IMG/VR virus record: IMGVR_UViG_3300029787_000079
Coordinates: 1 to 51,371 of that record
Origin: a virus
Length of the DNA stretch: 51,371 bases
Reading direction: 5' to 3' (one strand)
Shown: one piece after another, positions 23,689 to 33,100 of the stretch
Layout: each line of letters begins with the position of its first letter
Numbering within the stretch: the first letter of the stretch is position 1
Position numbers and translations under genes: made by a program
Notes under the pieces: model-generated
Database searches by the model: none
What the model saw: the letters and a program-made list of their open reading frames with translations, nothing else
What the model was told of the DNA's origin: nothing

Positions 23689-23702
23689 GCTACCGAGTGG
23701 AA

Positions 23703-25241
23703 ATGATAGAACTAGATAAATTTATAAAAATATTTGAAGGCTTAGATAGTGCCTACGGTCAAACTGTCAAAACAGATCAATTTAGCGAAAAGGGTAAACA
23801 CAAAACTAAATCTTTTACAATATCAAATCCTGTAACAAAAAAATTATGGCGAGAACATTTAGAAGGCAAGGATCCAGCTTTAGGTATTGTGCCTATTACT
23901 AAAGAAAACAAATGCAAGTGGGGGTGCATAGATATTGACACTTACCCATTTGATCACAAAAAATTTATACAAAAATTAAAACAAAAAAATATACCTATGA
24001 TTGTATGTCGATCAAAGTCTGGTGGTGCACATGCATTTTTATTTACCAAAGATTTTGTACCTGCAACTGTAATGAGAGTAAAATTAAAACTTATTGCATC
24101 TGCAATGGGTTTTGCCAGTGCAGAGATATTTCCTAAACAAGATTATATAAGAGTTGATAGAGGAGATACAGGTAGTTTTTTAAATTTACCTTATCATGCA
24201 AATGAAAGAACAGTTAGATATGCATATAATTTAGATGGAGGTGTTTTAAAATTACAAGAATTTTTTAATTTGTACGATGAAGTTTCTTTAACTTTAGAAC
24301 AGTTAAATGAGTTAAAAATAGAAAGTGAAAAAGAAAAAACGGATTTATTTAAAGGAATGCCTCCTTGTTTAGTTACATTACTAAGCGATGGTGTGCCTGA
24401 TGGCCAAAGAAATAACTGTATGTATAATGTTGGAGTGTATCTTAAAAAAAGATACCCAGACAAAGAAGAATGGCAAAGTCATATGTTTACTTATAACAAA
24501 CAATTTATGACACCACCGTTGGATGCAACAGAAATAAATACTTTAATAGGTTCATTAGATAGTAAAGAATACAATTATAAATGTAAAGATGAGCCAATAC
24601 ATAGTTTTTGTGATGCTAAAAAATGTGCAACAAAAGAATTTGGTGTAGGAGATAATGCACCAACTCCAGAAATAAATGAAATAAGAAAATATGATTCTGA
24701 TCCACCGATATACTTTGCTTCAATAGATGGTGAAAGTGTTGAGGTGGATGATGCAACATTACACGATCCAGAAAAATTTTCATTGGCTTGCATGAATCAA
24801 ATAGGCAAACCAATGATGCCAGTGCCTAAACATATGTGGCGTAGACTACTTATAAAATTATTTGCAAACTTAGAAACTATACCTGCACCAGAATCATCTA
24901 AATTAGACGTGCAGCTAAAAGAAATACTAGCAGATTATATAAACAAAACTCCAGGTAAAGAACTTAAAGATGTTATGCGAGGTATTGCATTTACAGATAC
25001 AGATGGTTTTACATATTTTAAATTTAAAGATTTTTGGAAATTTTTATTAAAAACAAAATCTTGGGCAGAAAAAACTTACCCTAAACAAAAAACAATGAGA
25101 TTGTTACAATCTTTATTTGAAGCAGAAGAAACATCACCTAAAGTAGGGGTTAAGACTGTAAGATTATTAAAAATGCCTACGATAAAATTGGAAAGACCAA
25201 ACCCTAGAACAACAAAAGTAGAAAAATCACCATGGCTATAG
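23703..25241 (+). CDS. Archaeo-eukaryotic-type DNA primase (PrimPol/TOTE-like), 512 aa
   Basis: Predicted primase making RNA/DNA primers at the phage fork. The N-terminal catalytic domain (residues about 1-200) shows the AEP signature: CKWGCIDIDTYPF (metal-binding DxD), CRSKSGGAHAFLF (SxxGxH) and AEIFPKQDYIRVDRG then FLNLPYH. This arrangement matches the primase of TOTE-like/PrimPol proteins. Residues about 220-300 contain a small alpha-helical domain with Cys residues (HSFCDAKKCATKEFG) that may bind zinc. No helicase motifs follow; that role is probably filled by the next gene. ATG 23703 is chosen; a GTG 6 nt upstream is in frame. It overlaps the helicase gene by 10 nt. Confidence 0.82.
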   Translation: MIELDKFIKIFEGLDSAYGQTVKTDQFSEKGKHKTKSFTISNPVTKKLWREHLEGKDPALGIVPITKENKCKWGCIDIDTYPFDHKKFIQKLKQKNIPMIVCRSKSGGAHAFLFTKDFVPATVMRVKLKLIASAMGFASAEIFPKQDYIRVDRGDTGSFLNLPYHANERTVRYAYNLDGGVLKLQEFFNLYDEVSLTLEQLNELKIESEKEKTDLFKGMPPCLVTLLSDGVPDGQRNNCMYNVGVYLKKRYPDKEEWQSHMFTYNKQFMTPPLDATEINTLIGSLDSKEYNYKCKDEPIHSFCDAKKCATKEFGVGDNAPTPEINEIRKYDSDPPIYFASIDGESVEVDDATLHDPEKFSLACMNQIGKPMMPVPKHMWRRLLIKLFANLETIPAPESSKLDVQLKEILADYINKTPGKELKDVMRGIAFTDTDGFTYFKFKDFWKFLLKTKSWAEKTYPKQKTMRLLQSLFEAEETSPKVGVKTVRLLKMPTIKLERPNPRTTKVEKSPWL

Positions 25242-26770
25242 TAAAGAAAATAATGGGTCCACCAGGCACTGGTAAAACATATAGACTAGTAAACTATTAT
25301 TTAAAAAAAGAATTAAATGATTATACTACTGATCCTGAAAAAATAGTATACATTACATTTAGTAGAGCTGCCTCAGAGGAGGCAGCAGAAAGAATTACAG
25401 AATTATTTCCTAATAGTAAATTAAAATACATATCAACAATGCACGCTATGGGTATGAGGGAGTCTAATATAGATGCTAATACACAATTACTTACTGGTAA
25501 AAAATGGAATAGGTTTAAACAAGAATACCCTGAATGGGTGAATATATCTTTTGAAACCACTGTTGATGCAGCAGGTAATCCTAAATATCAAAATACACAT
25601 TTACAAATAATACAATATTCAAGATCTAAATTAATTTCTATAGAAAACGCTGCTGTTGAATTACAGAAACATCATGAAATAGATGTAGACTCTACAATAC
25701 AATTACAAACAGATTTAAAATCATTTAAAGAGGGAACTAACATGGTTGAGTTCTATGATATGATTAACAAGTTTGTCGAGGAAGATCGGTGTCCTCCACT
25801 CGATGCTGTCTTCCTCGATGAAGCCCAAGACTTAAGTCCTCACCAATGGAAATGTTTTGATTACATAAAATCAAAATGTAAACGAGCCTATATGGCTGGT
25901 GATGATGACCAAACTATATATGGGTTTCAAGGTGCAGATCCTAATTATTTTATGGAACAAGAGGGTGAAAGAGATGATCAAGAGGTATCTAGAAGGGTTC
26001 CTAGAGCTGTGCATCGAGAGGCAATTAAAATACTAAATCAACTTACAAGTAGAATCGATAAGAAATGGATACCAAGAGATGCAGAAGGAACAGTTTATCC
26101 TAATTATACATTAGATGAAATAGATTTTTCTAAAGGACATTGGATGATATTAGCTAGGACTAATAAATTATTACTTAGTATTTCAGAACATTTTTATTTT
26201 TTAGGTGTAAGATTTACAGGCAGAGCAAATAAATATTTACCTAATTCTATATTAGAAGCTTATCAAGTTTGGACAAGATTAAATCAAGGAGCTTTTGTTT
26301 CTCCTGAAGAAGCTGAAAGACTTTATGATTATTTATTAGTAAAAAAAGGACACGTTCGTAGAGGTTATTCAGATGGTAAAACTATACAACGTGAAACAAG
26401 TGTTGATTTAGATAAATTAAAAAGTGAACACGGTTTACTAATAGATGGTGATTGGAAACAATTACATTTTCCAGAAGATACAAAAGAATATATGCAAACA
26501 TTATTAGAAAGAGGAGATACATTAATGGAAAAATCAAAAATACAATTATTAACTTTACATGGGTCTAAAGGTAAAGAATGTGAAAATGTATGTTTGTTTA
26601 CAGATTATGGAACAGAGGGGCAAGATGAATTTATTTATCGTAGCGCATATGAAAATCCTGATGCTGAACACAGACTATTTTATGTAGGCACAACAAGAGC
26701 AAAAGAAAACTTATATATTATGCAACCAACATCAGATTATTATTACACAATAGGGGGACCAATAGTATGA
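25232..26770 (+). CDS. UvrD/Rep-family superfamily 1 DNA helicase, 512 aa
   Basis: 3'-5' type SF1A helicase, likely the replicative or recombinational helicase of the phage. Visible motifs: Walker A GPPGTGKT (residues 8-15), motif Ia YITFSRAASEEAAERI, motif II VFLDEAQDLS, motif III MAGDDDQTIYGFQGA, motif V LLTLHGSKGKECENV and motif VI LFYVGTTRAKENLYI. Length 512 aa is shorter than UvrD (about 720 aa), reflecting reduced 1B/2B subdomains. The gene overlaps the primase gene and the next gene by 4 nt, indicating coupled production with primase and polymerase. Confidence 0.92.
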   Translation: MAIVKKIMGPPGTGKTYRLVNYYLKKELNDYTTDPEKIVYITFSRAASEEAAERITELFPNSKLKYISTMHAMGMRESNIDANTQLLTGKKWNRFKQEYPEWVNISFETTVDAAGNPKYQNTHLQIIQYSRSKLISIENAAVELQKHHEIDVDSTIQLQTDLKSFKEGTNMVEFYDMINKFVEEDRCPPLDAVFLDEAQDLSPHQWKCFDYIKSKCKRAYMAGDDDQTIYGFQGADPNYFMEQEGERDDQEVSRRVPRAVHREAIKILNQLTSRIDKKWIPRDAEGTVYPNYTLDEIDFSKGHWMILARTNKLLLSISEHFYFLGVRFTGRANKYLPNSILEAYQVWTRLNQGAFVSPEEAERLYDYLLVKKGHVRRGYSDGKTIQRETSVDLDKLKSEHGLLIDGDWKQLHFPEDTKEYMQTLLERGDTLMEKSKIQLLTLHGSKGKECENVCLFTDYGTEGQDEFIYRSAYENPDAEHRLFYVGTTRAKENLYIMQPTSDYYYTIGGPIV

Positions 26771-27006
26771 CAAATAAAGATATATTTAAAGGAGTCGAGT
26801 ACGATTCGTTAGAAAAACAAGTTGGAGGAAAACATTACAAGAGTATGAAGATCCAACCCGCAGAGTTTATAAATGAAAACAAATTGCTTTTTGCGGAAGG
26901 TAATGCTATAAAATATATATGCAGACATTCTTCGAAGGGAAAAGAAGAAGACATAAAGAAAGCAATACATTATTTAGAAATGATATTAGAAAGAGATTAT
27001 AGTTAA
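26767..27006 (+). CDS. DUF3310 family protein, 79 aa
   Basis: Small conserved phage protein of the DUF3310 (SaV-like) family. The diagnostic pattern is clear: QVGGKHYKSMKIQPAEFI, FAEGNAIKYICRHSSKG and KEEDIKKAIHYLEMIL. The family is usually found in replication or nucleotide-metabolism modules; its biochemical role is not known. It overlaps the helicase stop (ATGA) and its own stop overlaps the polymerase ATG, so it is produced as part of the replication operon. Confidence 0.9.
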   Translation: MTNKDIFKGVEYDSLEKQVGGKHYKSMKIQPAEFINENKLLFAEGNAIKYICRHSSKGKEEDIKKAIHYLEMILERDYS

Positions 27007-28889
27007 TGTTTGAAGCACAGACCGAATGGATAAGTCCTGAGTCATTTCCTGATCTTAAGGATCATAAATATATAGCCATTGACTTAGAGACAAGAGATCC
27101 TAATTTAAAATCAAAAGGATCTGGTGCATTAATAAATGAAGGAGAAATTGTAGGTGTTGCTGTAGCTGTTGAAGGTTGGTCTGGTTATTATTCTTTCGGA
27201 CACAAAGAAGGAAATTTTTTTGATGAAGCTGTAGTAATGCGATGGATAAAAGAAGTATGTGCATTGCCAAATGTAAAATTATTTCACAATGCAATGTATG
27301 ATGTGTGTTGGTTAAGAGCATACGGTGTTAAAATAAATGGCCATATTGTTGACACAATGGTTATGGCATCATTAGTAGATGAGAATAGATTATGGTATTC
27401 ACTTAATAGTTTATCCATAGATTATCTTGGACAAGTAAAAGATGAGACAGCATTAAGAGCAGCAGCTGACAAAGCAGGTATAGATGCAAAATCTGAGATG
27501 TGGAAACTACCTGCAATGTATGTAGGTTCTTATGCAGAGAAAGATGCAGAGCTGACTTTAGCTTTATTTAAAAAACTATCTATTGAAATTAAATCACAAG
27601 ATCTTACAAAAGTATTTGATCTTGAAACACAATTGTTTCCTTGTTTAATTGATATGAAGTTTAAGGGAGTGCGCGTAGACGTTGAAGCAGCTCATAAACT
27701 GAAACAAGAATTAGCGAAACAAGAAGAAATGTTACTCCTAGAAATAAAAAAAGAAACCAACCTAGAACCTCAAATATGGGCTGCAAGAAGCATTGCCAAA
27801 GTTTTTGACAAATTAAATTTACCTTACGCAAGAACTGCAAAATCAAAAGCACCTTCCTTTACTAAAAATTTTCTTCAAGAACATAAGCATCCTATTGTTA
27901 ATAAAATAGCAAAAGCTAGAGAAATTAATAAAGCACATACTACATTTATAGATACGATTATCAAGTATCAACATAGAGGTAGAATACATGCAGATATAAA
28001 TCCTATTAGGGGTGATAGTGGAGGCACAGTAACTGGTAGATTTTCATATTCAAATCCTAACCTTCAACAAATACCAGCGAGAAACAAGCAGCTAGGACCT
28101 ATGATTAGATCATTATTTATACCAGAGAATAATCATAAATGGGGATGCTTTGATTACTCACAGCAAGAACCAAGATTAGTTGTGCATTATGCGGCTACAA
28201 AATTTAAAGGTGATGAAGAAGTTACAGAGATAGTAGAAAGATTTCAAAACAATGAAGTAGACTTTCACCAAACTGTTGCAGATATGGCTAATATATCTAG
28301 AACACAAGCTAAGACAATTAACCTTGGACTGTTCTATGGTATGGGTAAAGCAAAACTACAAGCAGAGTTAGGTTTGTCTACAAAGGATGAAGCAACAAAA
28401 TTATTTAATAAGTATCATGACAGCGTACCATTTGTAAAAGATTTAATGGATGCAATATCTAGAGATGGGTCTGCGTTTGGTTATATAAAAACATTTGGTG
28501 GTAGAAAATGTAGATTTGACAAGTGGGAAATAGCAGAATGGAATAATGGTAAGTTTACTGCACCTATGAGTAAAGCTGATGCAGAGGCAGCATATTTTAA
28601 AAAATATCCTAAAGCTACAAAGGCAAATATAAGAAGAGCTTTTACATACAAAGCACTAAACAAATTAATACAAGGATCTGCTGCAGATATGACTAAACAA
28701 TCAATGTTAGATTTGTATAGAGAGGGCATTGTACCACATATACAAATACATGATGAACTTGATATTTCGGTAGAGTCAAACGATCAAGCTAAAAAAATTA
28801 TTGAGATTATGGAGAATGCTGTTAAATTAAAAATCCCTAATAAAGTAGACTATGAATCAGGAAACAATTGGGGGGAAATAAATGGATAA
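27006..28889 (+). CDS. polA: DNA polymerase I family (PolA, family A), 627 aa
   Basis: Replicative family A polymerase with proofreading. The 3'-5' exonuclease domain (about residues 20-200) has ExoI IAIDLETRD (D26, E28), ExoII FHNAMYDVCWL and ExoIII SYAEKDAELTL. The polymerase domain has motif A CFDYSQQEPR (D383), motif B RTQAKTINLGLFYG (R432, K436) and motif C HDELDIS (D583). No 5'-3' exonuclease domain is present, as in T7-like polymerases. The residue equivalent to E. coli F762 is Leu440, a variant known from environmental phage polymerases. The start overlaps the DUF3310 stop. Confidence 0.95.
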   Translation: MFEAQTEWISPESFPDLKDHKYIAIDLETRDPNLKSKGSGALINEGEIVGVAVAVEGWSGYYSFGHKEGNFFDEAVVMRWIKEVCALPNVKLFHNAMYDVCWLRAYGVKINGHIVDTMVMASLVDENRLWYSLNSLSIDYLGQVKDETALRAAADKAGIDAKSEMWKLPAMYVGSYAEKDAELTLALFKKLSIEIKSQDLTKVFDLETQLFPCLIDMKFKGVRVDVEAAHKLKQELAKQEEMLLLEIKKETNLEPQIWAARSIAKVFDKLNLPYARTAKSKAPSFTKNFLQEHKHPIVNKIAKAREINKAHTTFIDTIIKYQHRGRIHADINPIRGDSGGTVTGRFSYSNPNLQQIPARNKQLGPMIRSLFIPENNHKWGCFDYSQQEPRLVVHYAATKFKGDEEVTEIVERFQNNEVDFHQTVADMANISRTQAKTINLGLFYGMGKAKLQAELGLSTKDEATKLFNKYHDSVPFVKDLMDAISRDGSAFGYIKTFGGRKCRFDKWEIAEWNNGKFTAPMSKADAEAAYFKKYPKATKANIRRAFTYKALNKLIQGSAADMTKQSMLDLYREGIVPHIQIHDELDISVESNDQAKKIIEIMENAVKLKIPNKVDYESGNNWGEING

Positions 28890-28894
28890 TTATT

Positions 28895-29545
28895 ATGGCA
28901 TATTTAAATGCAAACATACCACCAATTTACGCACAAATAAGAAAGGAGTATCTATATGATAACAAAAAACATCATGGAGAAGTTGAAGATTGTATTATCT
29001 TTGGTATTAGCTGTATTACAGGTCGTGCTATTTTATGGCACGCTATTATGGAAAACGGCGCAGTCTTTTATAGGCTCCCAATTACGGCTTTTATTCAACG
29101 TGGTTATGAACCGTCAACTGTTCCACGTAAAAGACTTGATGAATTACAACTTTGGAATTCTTTTAGTTATTACCCTGCTATTACTGATTATGATATTTTA
29201 AGTGGTCAACATGGAAAATATATAGGTAAAGATAAAAAATGGCATCACGGTAACTATCTCTTTACCATTGACTTTGCACATCCAGAGAGTAATATAGTAG
29301 ATACGGAGCATTCCGAAATACCGCACGAACATAAGTGCGCTCACATAATAGCCTTAGATGACGGCAATTATGCAGCACAACCTAACAATCGAATCATATG
29401 GGATTTACCATCTTTCACTGTGAAAGATAATATTCCTGATTGGAAGGTACAAACATCAGAGTGGAACGTAGAGGATTCCGGTAAATGGATAACTGAAGAC
29501 ACCGATAAATTTTTCTACGAAATTGAGGAGAAAAAAAATGATTAA
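28895..29545 (+). CDS. Conserved phage protein, 216 aa (MAYLNANIP family)
   Basis: Function unknown. Soluble, Trp/His/Tyr-rich protein starting MAYLNANIPPIYAQIRKEYL, a beginning remembered from T4-like cyanophage and pelagiphage genomes. Other conserved-looking parts are FGISCITGRAILWHAIMENG, LPITAFI and LWNSFSYYPAIT. The ATG at 28895 is preferred; an in-frame TTG at 28868 would add nine unrelated residues inside the polymerase gene. It lies just after the polymerase and is coupled to the small gene at 29538. A DNA-metabolism or host-takeover role is inferred from position only. Confidence 0.65.
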   Translation: MAYLNANIPPIYAQIRKEYLYDNKKHHGEVEDCIIFGISCITGRAILWHAIMENGAVFYRLPITAFIQRGYEPSTVPRKRLDELQLWNSFSYYPAITDYDILSGQHGKYIGKDKKWHHGNYLFTIDFAHPESNIVDTEHSEIPHEHKCAHIIALDDGNYAAQPNNRIIWDLPSFTVKDNIPDWKVQTSEWNVEDSGKWITEDTDKFFYEIEEKKND

Positions 29546-29627
29546 AAAATGGATTGTAAGACCGGTTAGAAAACAATGGAAAAAATTTCTAGGGTGGCTT
29601 TTTAGTTGGCAAAAAAAAGATGAGTAA
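29538..29627 (+). CDS. Very small basic peptide, 29 aa
   Basis: Short frame beginning 8 nt before the end of the previous gene, with a GAGGAG ribosome site at 29525. The product is basic and Trp-rich (KKWIVRPVRKQWKKFLGWLF) and could be an amphipathic membrane-binding helix. Its stop overlaps the next start. A similarly short basic Trp-containing peptide, VRKWIVKLRMWYADIRG, is encoded at 30454-30573, so the two may be related. Function unknown. Confidence 0.5.
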   Translation: MIKKWIVRPVRKQWKKFLGWLFSWQKKDE

Positions 29628-29790
29628 ATGTCAAAACTGTAAGAACGATTGCCATTGTCAAAATAATTTACAAGAAAATAGTGTGGGTATTTGTAAATGT
29701 AATGATTGTAAATGTAAAAGAACTTATAAAAAACAAAAAGATTATGCAACAGATATATCTTTTGAAAATGAAGTAAAATACGATGGGTAA
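29620..29790 (+). CDS. Metallothionein-like Cys-rich mini-protein, 56 aa
   Basis: Cysteines lie at 4, 7, 11, 13, 25, 27, 30 and 32, with His at 12. They form CQNCKNDCHC, an 11-residue linker, then CKCNDCKC. The second cluster is CxCxxCxC, the same spacing as in bacterial metallothionein SmtA (CACEPCLC). Dense Cys with Lys/Asn spacers, small size and no aromatic core argue for binding Zn, Cu or Cd as thiolate clusters. The C-terminal 24 residues (KRTYKKQKDYATDISFENEV...) have no Cys. The gene overlaps both neighbours (8 nt each) in the envelope/lysis region. An alternative is a compact zinc finger. Metal binding is inferred from the pattern. Confidence 0.65.
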   Translation: MSKCQNCKNDCHCQNNLQENSVGICKCNDCKCKRTYKKQKDYATDISFENEVKYDG

Positions 29791-30454
29791 AAGTATGAAT
29801 TATTATTTTACAGGAATATTAATTATATTAGTTTGTTTATTAACATTTATTAAACCAGCTTACCCTGGATCTACACAAACAAATACATCTGGATCTAACA
29901 CCGCAATTGAAGGTGGTTACACTTCTACTGCAACTACTACATATCAATCTGGATCAAGTTCTAATAGCACTACAAATAGTACAACAAATTCAAATATAAG
30001 ATCAGCACCTCCATCAGCATCTTCACCATCATATAATAGTATGACACAAGATGTTTGCGCTGTAGGTGGATCACTTGGAGTACAGACGTTTGGACTAGGA
30101 ATTAGTGGCGGGAAACATTTTATAGATAAAAATTGTGAAAGATTAAAACTAGCTAGAATACTTAATGATTTTGGTATGAAAGTCGCAGCTGTTGCAATAC
30201 TTTGTCAAGACGAAAGAGTGTTTGAATCAATGATACAAGCAGGAACACCATGTCCAATTGATGGTAAAATAGGTAAAGAAGCACAAAAACTTTGGTCTAA
30301 GTATGATAACGAAAGACCTGACTATGACATATACGTTAAACGTATGAAAGCTAGAGAAAGAAAAGAAAAAAAATTAGAGAGAGAAGCAGCTCTGAGAGAA
30401 AAGAAAAAACTAGAATCAAAAATTAAAATAGAAAAATTAAATCCGGATAGATAA
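29783..30454 (+). CDS. Secreted/anchored hypothetical protein, 223 aa
   Basis: Function unknown. N-terminal signal or anchor, residues 5-24 (MNYYFTGILIILVCLLTFIK), cleavage likely after AYPG, so it is exported. A Ser/Thr/Asn-rich linker (about residues 30-80) leads to a small domain with four Cys (DVCAVGG, KNCERLKL, ILCQDERV, TPCPIDG) that could make disulfides in the periplasm. Residues about 185-223 are a very charged helix (RMKARERKEKKLEREAALRE). The ATG at 29795 is an alternative start. It belongs to a run of envelope genes preceding the endolysin. Confidence 0.55.
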   Translation: MGKSMNYYFTGILIILVCLLTFIKPAYPGSTQTNTSGSNTAIEGGYTSTATTTYQSGSSSNSTTNSTTNSNIRSAPPSASSPSYNSMTQDVCAVGGSLGVQTFGLGISGGKHFIDKNCERLKLARILNDFGMKVAAVAILCQDERVFESMIQAGTPCPIDGKIGKEAQKLWSKYDNERPDYDIYVKRMKARERKEKKLEREAALREKKKLESKIKIEKLNPDR

Positions 30455-31183: not shown

Positions 31184-31293
31184 TTTGGATATTAGCAATG
31201 ATAATAGGAGTAGCATATGCGGTTAATCGTATTAACAATTTTGCTGACAGCGTTAACCCTTACGACTTCAGCAGAAGAAATCACAACAAATAA
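31180..31293 (+). CDS. Possible nested small membrane protein, 37 aa
   Basis: ATGA overlap with the previous gene, then 37 codons reading MIWILAMIIGVAYAVNRINN FADSVNPYDFSRR in two parts, with an N-terminal membrane segment. It covers the 33-nt gap and runs for 77 nt in a different frame inside the next gene. The coupling and the membrane segment favour a real gene; its nested location and short length leave doubt. Confidence 0.3.
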   Translation: MIWILAMIIGVAYAVNRINNFADSVNPYDFSRRNHNK

Positions 31294-33100
31294 TTTACTT
31301 CCAAATGCAGGTGACGGCGTAGACTGGGGCTCTAATGCTACAGATCAAATTAATCCTGGTGGTTCTGGCACTGTTTACAATGGTAACACATTAAATGGTT
31401 TTGATGTAACTTGCCCTGCATCTCAATCTAGTTGTGGTTATAAATTTAGTGTAGGTGGTGATTTTGAAGTTACTGGCACAGCAACATTATCTGTTGATGA
31501 CATTGCACTAACAAATAATAATAGAACACAAGAAATGTTAGACAATGGTATAACTTTAAATAGTTATATTGATGTTGCAAACTGTGATAGTCAACCAGGA
31601 AACTGTGAAGGTAAATCGGGAAATGCAGATTCACACACAGTTACAATACAATTAAAAGATTCATTAGGTACAGTTTTATCTACAACCACACAAACAAGAA
31701 CAGACATTGATGGTTTTCAAGGAAACTGTAATGGTTATCCAACATCAAACTCTGGCGGACAGACTGCAGATTGTGGACAATATAATGATCAAGTAATTTA
31801 TAATGGTCATGGATCAAATAAAGTAGATTGGTCCTGGAGTGGCACAGATAATAACTCAGGGTCAGCTGTTAAAGGGGGTCCTAATTTATTGGGTGCAGCT
31901 CTTACGATGACTTACGATGATACTATATTAGATACTAACACTTCAACAGCTTTAGGTGATGTCCAAGATACCTTAGGTGATTTACAAGAAGAGGTATTTG
32001 ATGATGTGCAAGAATTTTTTTTAGAAGAAAAAACTTTTACATTTGACGAAGAGCCTCAATTTGAAATGGAAATGCCAATGGAAATGGAGATGAACACGCT
32101 TCAATTTGCAGAAGAGTTTATACAAGAATTTTTTATGGAAATAGACCAAGAGTTTATGATGGAACCCGAAGGTATGGAACTTGAAGATGGACCCATAGTT
32201 ATGTTTGCTGACGATGTTATGATGGAGGAGGTGTACGAAGAGTCTAATGAAATTGTTGCAACTTTTCTACCTATGATGCCAGATAACGAGGAAGCTTTTA
32301 CAACAGAAGAAGCTTTTGTGGATGATGAACCACCCCCTATGTTTATGCAGCCCAATGAAGAACCAGAATCTTTTGCTAATGATACATTTGAACAAGAAGA
32401 AATGATGGAAGATGAGCCACCAATGATGACAGAGTCTTTTCCACAAGAAGAAATGATGGAAGAAAAACCAGCTATGATGACAGAATCTTTTCCACAAGAA
32501 GAGGAAATGATGGAAGAAGAAATGATGGAAGAAGATATGTTAGAAGAACCAACAGAAATGGCTGAAGAAGAAATAATAGAAGAAGAGCCAACAGAAATGG
32601 CTGAAGAAGAATCTGTTGAGGAAAAACCTACAAAAATGGTACAAGCAAATGATGAAAAGAAAAAAGAAACAATTAAAGAAAAGAAACCTACTAGCGAAAC
32701 TACTAAAAAGTCCTCTGTTCAAACCAAAAAAATTGCCGAACAAAAAGCAATACAACAGAAAAAAGCTCTTGTTAAAAATCTTGCAAGAGTAATGGAAAAA
32801 GTTGATAATGATATAAAAAATATATCAAAAAATCTACAAATAAAAAATATAATTAAAATGCAAGCTATGACAACAGATCAGGTATCTTTAAATCAATATG
32901 CAAATACACAGTTTTATAAGCCAAAAGACATATATTTAGATCAATTAAACCTCATAGATAACAGGTTAATTTATGCAGATAAGAGTCTTGCAACGTATAT
33001 TCAAAATGATAAGATAGAAATTAAAGCAAAAAAACTTCAAGAGATTAAATTAAAAAAACAACAAATCTTATTGGAGTTGGAGGCACTAAAAAATGGGTAA
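31217..33100 (+). CDS. Large secreted Glu/Met-rich protein, 627 aa
   Basis: Exported protein with signal peptide residues 1-19 (MRLIVLTILLTALTLTTSA/EE). Residues 20-240 form a beta-rich domain with six or more Cys (VTCPASQSSCGYKF, VANCDSQPGNCEGKSG, GNCNGYPTSNSG) and a 'DWGSNATDQINPGGSG' lectin-like start. Residues about 265-480 are an extraordinary acidic, Met-rich repeat region (EEMMEEE, MMTESFPQEEMMEE, EEPTEMAEEE). Residues 480-627 are Lys-rich and coiled-coil. Genes of this kind sit upstream of the lysis genes in marine phages, by recollection. It may act in the periplasm or on the virion surface. Function unknown. Confidence 0.6.
   Translation: MRLIVLTILLTALTLTTSAEEITTNNLLPNAGDGVDWGSNATDQINPGGSGTVYNGNTLNGFDVTCPASQSSCGYKFSVGGDFEVTGTATLSVDDIALTNNNRTQEMLDNGITLNSYIDVANCDSQPGNCEGKSGNADSHTVTIQLKDSLGTVLSTTTQTRTDIDGFQGNCNGYPTSNSGGQTADCGQYNDQVIYNGHGSNKVDWSWSGTDNNSGSAVKGGPNLLGAALTMTYDDTILDTNTSTALGDVQDTLGDLQEEVFDDVQEFFLEEKTFTFDEEPQFEMEMPMEMEMNTLQFAEEFIQEFFMEIDQEFMMEPEGMELEDGPIVMFADDVMMEEVYEESNEIVATFLPMMPDNEEAFTTEEAFVDDEPPPMFMQPNEEPESFANDTFEQEEMMEDEPPMMTESFPQEEMMEEKPAMMTESFPQEEEMMEEEMMEEDMLEEPTEMAEEEIIEEEPTEMAEEESVEEKPTKMVQANDEKKKETIKEKKPTSETTKKSSVQTKKIAEQKAIQQKKALVKNLARVMEKVDNDIKNISKNLQIKNIIKMQAMTTDQVSLNQYANTQFYKPKDIYLDQLNLIDNRLIYADKSLATYIQNDKIEIKAKKLQEIKLKKQQILLELEALKNG

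Follow-up and report, generated by a model that had tools for sequence, protein, structure and literature searches.

Does a phage encode a metallothionein of its own? The question is raised by a short gene at 29620-29790 of the window, by which we mean the whole 51,371-nucleotide stretch of viral DNA analysed here. Its translation, MSKCQNCKNDCHCQNNLQENSVGICKCNDCKCKRTYKKQKDYATDISFENEVKYDG (56 aa), places Cys at positions 4, 7, 11, 13, 25, 27, 30 and 32 and His at position 12, all within residues 1-32, in the spacing CxxCx3CxCx11CxCxxCxC. A sequence-only reading of this DNA had described eight Cys and one His in the first 32 residues, a second cluster, CKCNDCKC, with the CxCxxCxC spacing of bacterial SmtA, and a frame overlapping both neighbours. 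These points are borne out by the translation, by comparison with CACEPCLC in the SmtA sequence (PDB 1jjd), and by eight-base overlaps with the preceding small ORF (ATGAGTAA, 29620-29627) and with the following ORF (ATGGGTAA, 29783-29790). The window's module contains three CxC motifs and no aromatic residues; the traits of the metallothionein functional class, namely small size, a Cys content above roughly 15-20%, CxC motifs and the lack of a hydrophobic core, are all present in the module (positions in Table 1).

Table 1. Positions of the Cys/His-rich gene, its parts and its neighbours in the window.
Feature	Position	Strand	Basis or remark
DUF3310 (T7 gp1.7-like) protein without the common leader peptide	26767..27006	+	
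DNA polymerase A	27006..28889	+	phrog_17, 2.8e-114
phrog_3704 protein ('ferredoxin' in PHROGs), conserved upstream neighbour	28898..29545	+	6e-72
Small basic/hydrophobic ORF, 29 aa	29538..29627	+	overlaps the gene start by 8 bases
Cys/His-rich 56-aa protein gene, metallothionein-like	29620..29790	+	translation; homologues
Metal-binding module (predicted), residues 4-32	29629..29715	+	C-x2-C-x3-C-H-C-x11-C-x-C-x2-C-x-C
Exchangeable C-terminal tail KRTYKKQKDYATDISFENEVKYDG	29716..29787	+	DUF3310 proteins in HTVC033P-type phages open with a near-identical peptide
Downstream ORF, signal-peptide-like N-terminus	29783..30454	+	8-base overlap with the gene

Conservation of the gene and its distribution

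Richness in Cys was rejected as evidence when taken alone, since antisense frames are equally rich: a density of 8 Cys per 32 aa arose in three of 40 first-order Markov simulations of the window, and the real sequence has other frames, nearly all of them antisense to coding regions, with 7-10. Comparison with relatives was far more telling. C4, C7, C11, H12, C13, C25, C27, C30 and C32 are invariant in 64 of the 64 homologues that we tabulated, with each of the two codons for Cys and for His in use at these sites, and the pooled estimates for close pairs were dN ~0.105 vs dS ~1.29 (dN/dS ~0.08). Because the Cys residues and H12 are held in all 64 while their codons vary synonymously, we regard the reality of the gene as settled; on this comparative ground, the 29620-29790 frame is a member of a real gene family.

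Relatives were sought in viral contigs and found there. An alignment query returned at least 174 of them; a protein identical to that of the window occurs in three further IMG/VR contigs, and relatives at 49-82% identity occur in 29 more. The metallothionein-like reading had been made to hang on homologues that keep the Cys spacing, and they do so: a DNA scan that specified the first cluster only (C-K-x-C-[FHYL]-H-x-C-H-C) gave 114 readable loci, in which CxCxxCxC follows in 110 and CxCxxCxH in 3 more. Over all fetched loci, comprising IMG/VR contigs and three cultured pelagiphages, we collected 151 distinct sequences of module plus tail. The only cultured carriers are three Pelagibacter phages, HTVC041P, Gjalp and Eyrgjafa. 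Two different exact short motifs, a kind of matching that may miss divergent relatives, were run against 84,980 bacterial and archaeal genomes and detected no relative, nor did a scan of plasmids.

Predicted ligands, the minimal form and the tails

Cys (28%) and His (12%) together make up 40% of the residues across the modules. Position 9 is Cys or His in every module except that of the window, where it is Asn, and position 18 is His, rarely Cys, in every module except that of the window, where it is Gln; the last Cys is replaced by His in four of all the modules fetched. Mapped on the tree of the adjacent DNA polymerase, position 9 switches between His and Cys 13 times, with 10 or more of the switches on well-supported branches; some of these changes could stem from gene exchange between phages. 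Free exchange of Cys and His at an otherwise fixed position has the look of a metal ligand, and canonical members would possess about 11 ligands (8-9 Cys and 2-3 His). By this alignment the window protein, with N9 and Q18, is a reduced member with nine predicted ligands; it is not the best representative of the family, because two near-universal ligands of its relatives are absent.

The module also occurs alone. In 23 distinct sequences nothing follows the last Cys, and the shortest proteins measure 32 aa (for example MKSCKNCHHECHCDDGLHADEYGLCTCEECKC); the module is thus self-sufficient, with the tails as optional additions. Sorted by tail, the 151 sequences comprise 74 ending in ...SYENEVKYD, 33 with no tail or at most six residues, 15 in ...GECESCQ, 12 in ...KDFWK, 5 in ...FNG, and others. 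One tail class, ending in GLVIDDTGECESCQ (loci L297, L334, L339, L348 and others), bears an extra CxxC at the extreme C-terminus. The tail class of the window is almost the same peptide as the leader at the N-terminus of DUF3310 proteins in HTVC033P-type phages, such as KRTYHYQKDHSHDMSYENEIKYD; the pattern KRTYxxxKDHxxDMSYENEVxYD is common to the tail (29716-29787 in the window) and to the DUF3310 leaders (loci L108-L187), an instance of a peptide swapped between small phage genes that are unrelated. A module and a DUF3310 domain joined in one protein were seen neither among the best 80 matches of a chimeric query nor at any of 149 DUF3310 loci.

Genomic context

The gene had been placed in an envelope/lysis region. 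Its downstream side agrees with that placement, with a signal-peptide-like gene next to it and an M15 endolysin 3.6 kb downstream; its upstream side, with DUF3310, DNA polymerase A and phrog_3704, does not. At 55 of 68 distinct-protein loci the gene likewise lies downstream of DNA polymerase A and phrog_3704, often with DUF3310 further upstream. Elsewhere it adjoins capsid genes (L071, L079, L080 and L094), sits between scaffold and capsid in Autographiviridae pelagiphages, has a terminase gene a few genes away (L348), or, in another phage type, stands among kinase/cytidyltransferase genes (L318 and L402). Close phrog_3704 loci with enough downstream sequence contain the module in 12 of 59 cases, 4-248 bases after the stop codon. 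The module gene is an accessory gene in a variable slot, present in several phage types. Its neighbourhood revealed no link to metal genes.

Several neighbouring features are worth recording in their own right. The phrog_3704 protein carries an invariant HKCxH motif, is strongly conserved and has no Pfam match; its 'ferredoxin' name looks doubtful, and the AlphaFold2 model obtained for it (pLDDT 41.5) was unusable. At locus L278, two phrog_3704 copies (282-929 and 2111-2761) flank the Cys gene. In many contigs (L098:2029-2223; L334, L335), the Cys gene is immediately preceded by a small ORF that ends in VCxKHPxxxKKxCPxCR and is possibly, from this motif, a second small zinc-binding protein; the version in the window lacks that part. 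Further away in the window, 23697-25241 encodes a protein that combines a TOTE-type archaeo-eukaryotic primase domain with PriCT-1, the DNA polymerase of this phage being of family A, and 31217-33100 encodes a protein of 627 aa that looks secreted, matches no family and contains long acidic repeats rich in Met and Glu.

A candidate metal-thiolate cluster

With the family delineated, we asked what the module does. Metal binding is very likely, judging from the pattern of conserved residues. As regards the metallothionein-like label, what stands is a predicted Cys/His metal-binding mini-protein, strongly supported by invariant ligands, repeated Cys/His exchange, the 32-aa form and the lack of a confident metal-free fold; what does not stand is homology to SmtA or to known metallothioneins. 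Our preferred reading is that the gene probably encodes a small cytosolic protein with a metallothionein-like multi-metal cluster that would act as an accessory metal buffer. The first ~32 residues would fold round bound metal, most likely several Zn(II) ions coordinated by His and by Cys thiolates, some of them bridging, as in metallothionein, and the accessory gene would let the infected cell hold, buffer or pass on more zinc (or Cu/Cd). We infer from the comparisons each element of this model, namely bound metal, a cluster of three or more ions, zinc as the metal, and the buffering role. More than two metal ions with common thiolates are the likeliest arrangement because there are ~11 ligand-like positions and three CxC motifs: this number of conserved ligands would exceed the need of two mononuclear zinc sites, and three CxC motifs would be typical of metal-thiolate clusters. 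The His content and the parallel with SmtA would favour zinc over copper as the metal. Metallothioneins of bacteria bind Zn(II) over the range in which free zinc occurs in these cells (PMC10612145), and what the Pseudomonas metallothionein does physiologically is itself subtle (PMC7387436); a buffering role in infected cells would by analogy be plausible.

The loss of two ligand positions in the window's own protein tells against the multi-metal cluster. The main rival to it is a structural mini zinc finger whose two zinc sites are mononuclear; as a host-takeover or regulatory peptide, this finger would bind nucleic acid or a protein of host or phage and would not buffer metal. We consider it unlikely. 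In its favour, the non-ligand loop LHADEYG is also conserved, as would suit a defined mini zinc finger, there are CxxC knuckles, and the exchangeable tails resemble docking peptides, one of them common to DUF3310 proteins. The surplus of ligand positions over two sites tells against it, as do the little partner surface offered by the 32-aa tailless forms and the lack of a confident fold or structural match.

The shared tail also speaks for another explanation, in which the protein would bind metal as an accessory subunit in the nucleotide or replication metabolism of the phage, together with the nearby DUF3310 protein, and the tail would be a fusion remnant or a common docking site. T7 gp1.7 has a Cys-rich N-terminal region, and the upstream order DUF3310-polA-phrog_3704 recurs in most loci; against these stand the lack of fusions in the searches described above, the many members that lack that tail or adjoin capsid genes, and the 47 of 59 sampled phrog_3704 loci from which the module is missing, and we judge this explanation improbable. 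A Cys-rich redox/disulfide peptide or Fe-S carrier, for which only the high Cys content speaks, is very improbable: repeated Cys/His exchange and an invariant His suit metal coordination, not disulfides, and there is neither a signal peptide nor a known Fe-S motif.

A broader form of the preferred cluster model is that several unrelated marine phage types encode a virus-specific minimal (32-aa) zinc-cluster family, independent of known metallothioneins, that controls metal in SAR11-like cells; we advance this tentatively, as a reading with nearly as much for it as against it. If true, phages would manipulate trace-metal pools in the ocean's most abundant bacteria, metal-buffering proteins would constitute an auxiliary gene class without report in the searched literature, and few genetically encoded metal-cluster proteins would be as small as the 32-residue form. 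Cultured carriers grow on laboratory SAR11 strains, so the idea is directly testable.

Comparison with known systems

The family appears to be undescribed: by sequence it would be a new phage family, metallothionein-like in anatomy and outside every known metallothionein family tested. Annotation pipelines miss it, as Pfam, NCBIfam and PDB gave no significant match for the module protein, the best PHROG scores (E = 0.003-0.005, from 2-3 members) were to families of unknown function and give no confident assignment, and the gene is unannotated in HTVC041P. Our search of the open-access literature turned up no relevant paper on metallothioneins from phages, viruses in general or pelagiphages. 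AlphaFold2, run without metal, returned a model with pLDDT 59, pTM 0.33 and hardly any secondary structure, which is compatible with a metal-dependent fold and counts as weak evidence for one. Foldseek of this model against the PDB gave no match. Homology to known zinc-finger families is likewise unsupported, with no significant match in Pfam, in PDB sequences or in Foldseek, though at this low model confidence the protein may still be a small finger.

Comparison with metallothioneins by HHpred or Foldseek had been put forward as a way to check the resemblance; here Foldseek gave no structural match, and HHalign aligned 9 residues only, those around CxCxxCxC of SmtA, at a probability of 4%. 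With the PF02069 profile, which did match in control genomes, the window gave nothing at E <= 10; homology to SmtA/PF02069 is therefore unsupported. The likeness to SmtA/BmtA lies in a length of ~55 aa, in CxCxxCxC and in the ligand count (9 Cys and 2 His in SmtA vs 8-9 Cys and 2-3 His in the phage module). SmtA holds a Zn4Cys9His2 cluster. The order of motifs is reversed. In SmtA a zinc-finger part (CxxxC...CxxxxCxC) comes after CxCxxCxC, where the phage protein has only its optional tail. With minimal fungal and animal metallothioneins such as that of Neurospora (~25 aa, Metallothio_5) the module shares very short length, richness in CxC and the lack of a hydrophobic core. Those proteins are His-poor copper thioneins. 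Membership in Metallothio_5 is unsupported, the best Pfam score being E = 0.17 for one member.

Two phage systems complete the comparison. Some DUF3310 (PF11753) proteins start with the 23-residue peptide of the window tail, and T7 gp1.7, a nucleotide kinase, has its Cys-rich region ahead of a DUF3310-like part, whereas the Cys module was in none of the DUF3310 proteins examined; the window's module protein has no match to the DUF3310 domain, the leader peptide alone being common to both. True homologues occur in the Pelagibacter phages: the hypothetical protein Gjalp_gp42 of Gjalp and the corresponding ORFs of Eyrgjafa and HTVC041P carry the same module with another tail (KDFWKVMSSRFNK) at the scaffold-capsid position and are annotated as hypothetical or left unannotated.
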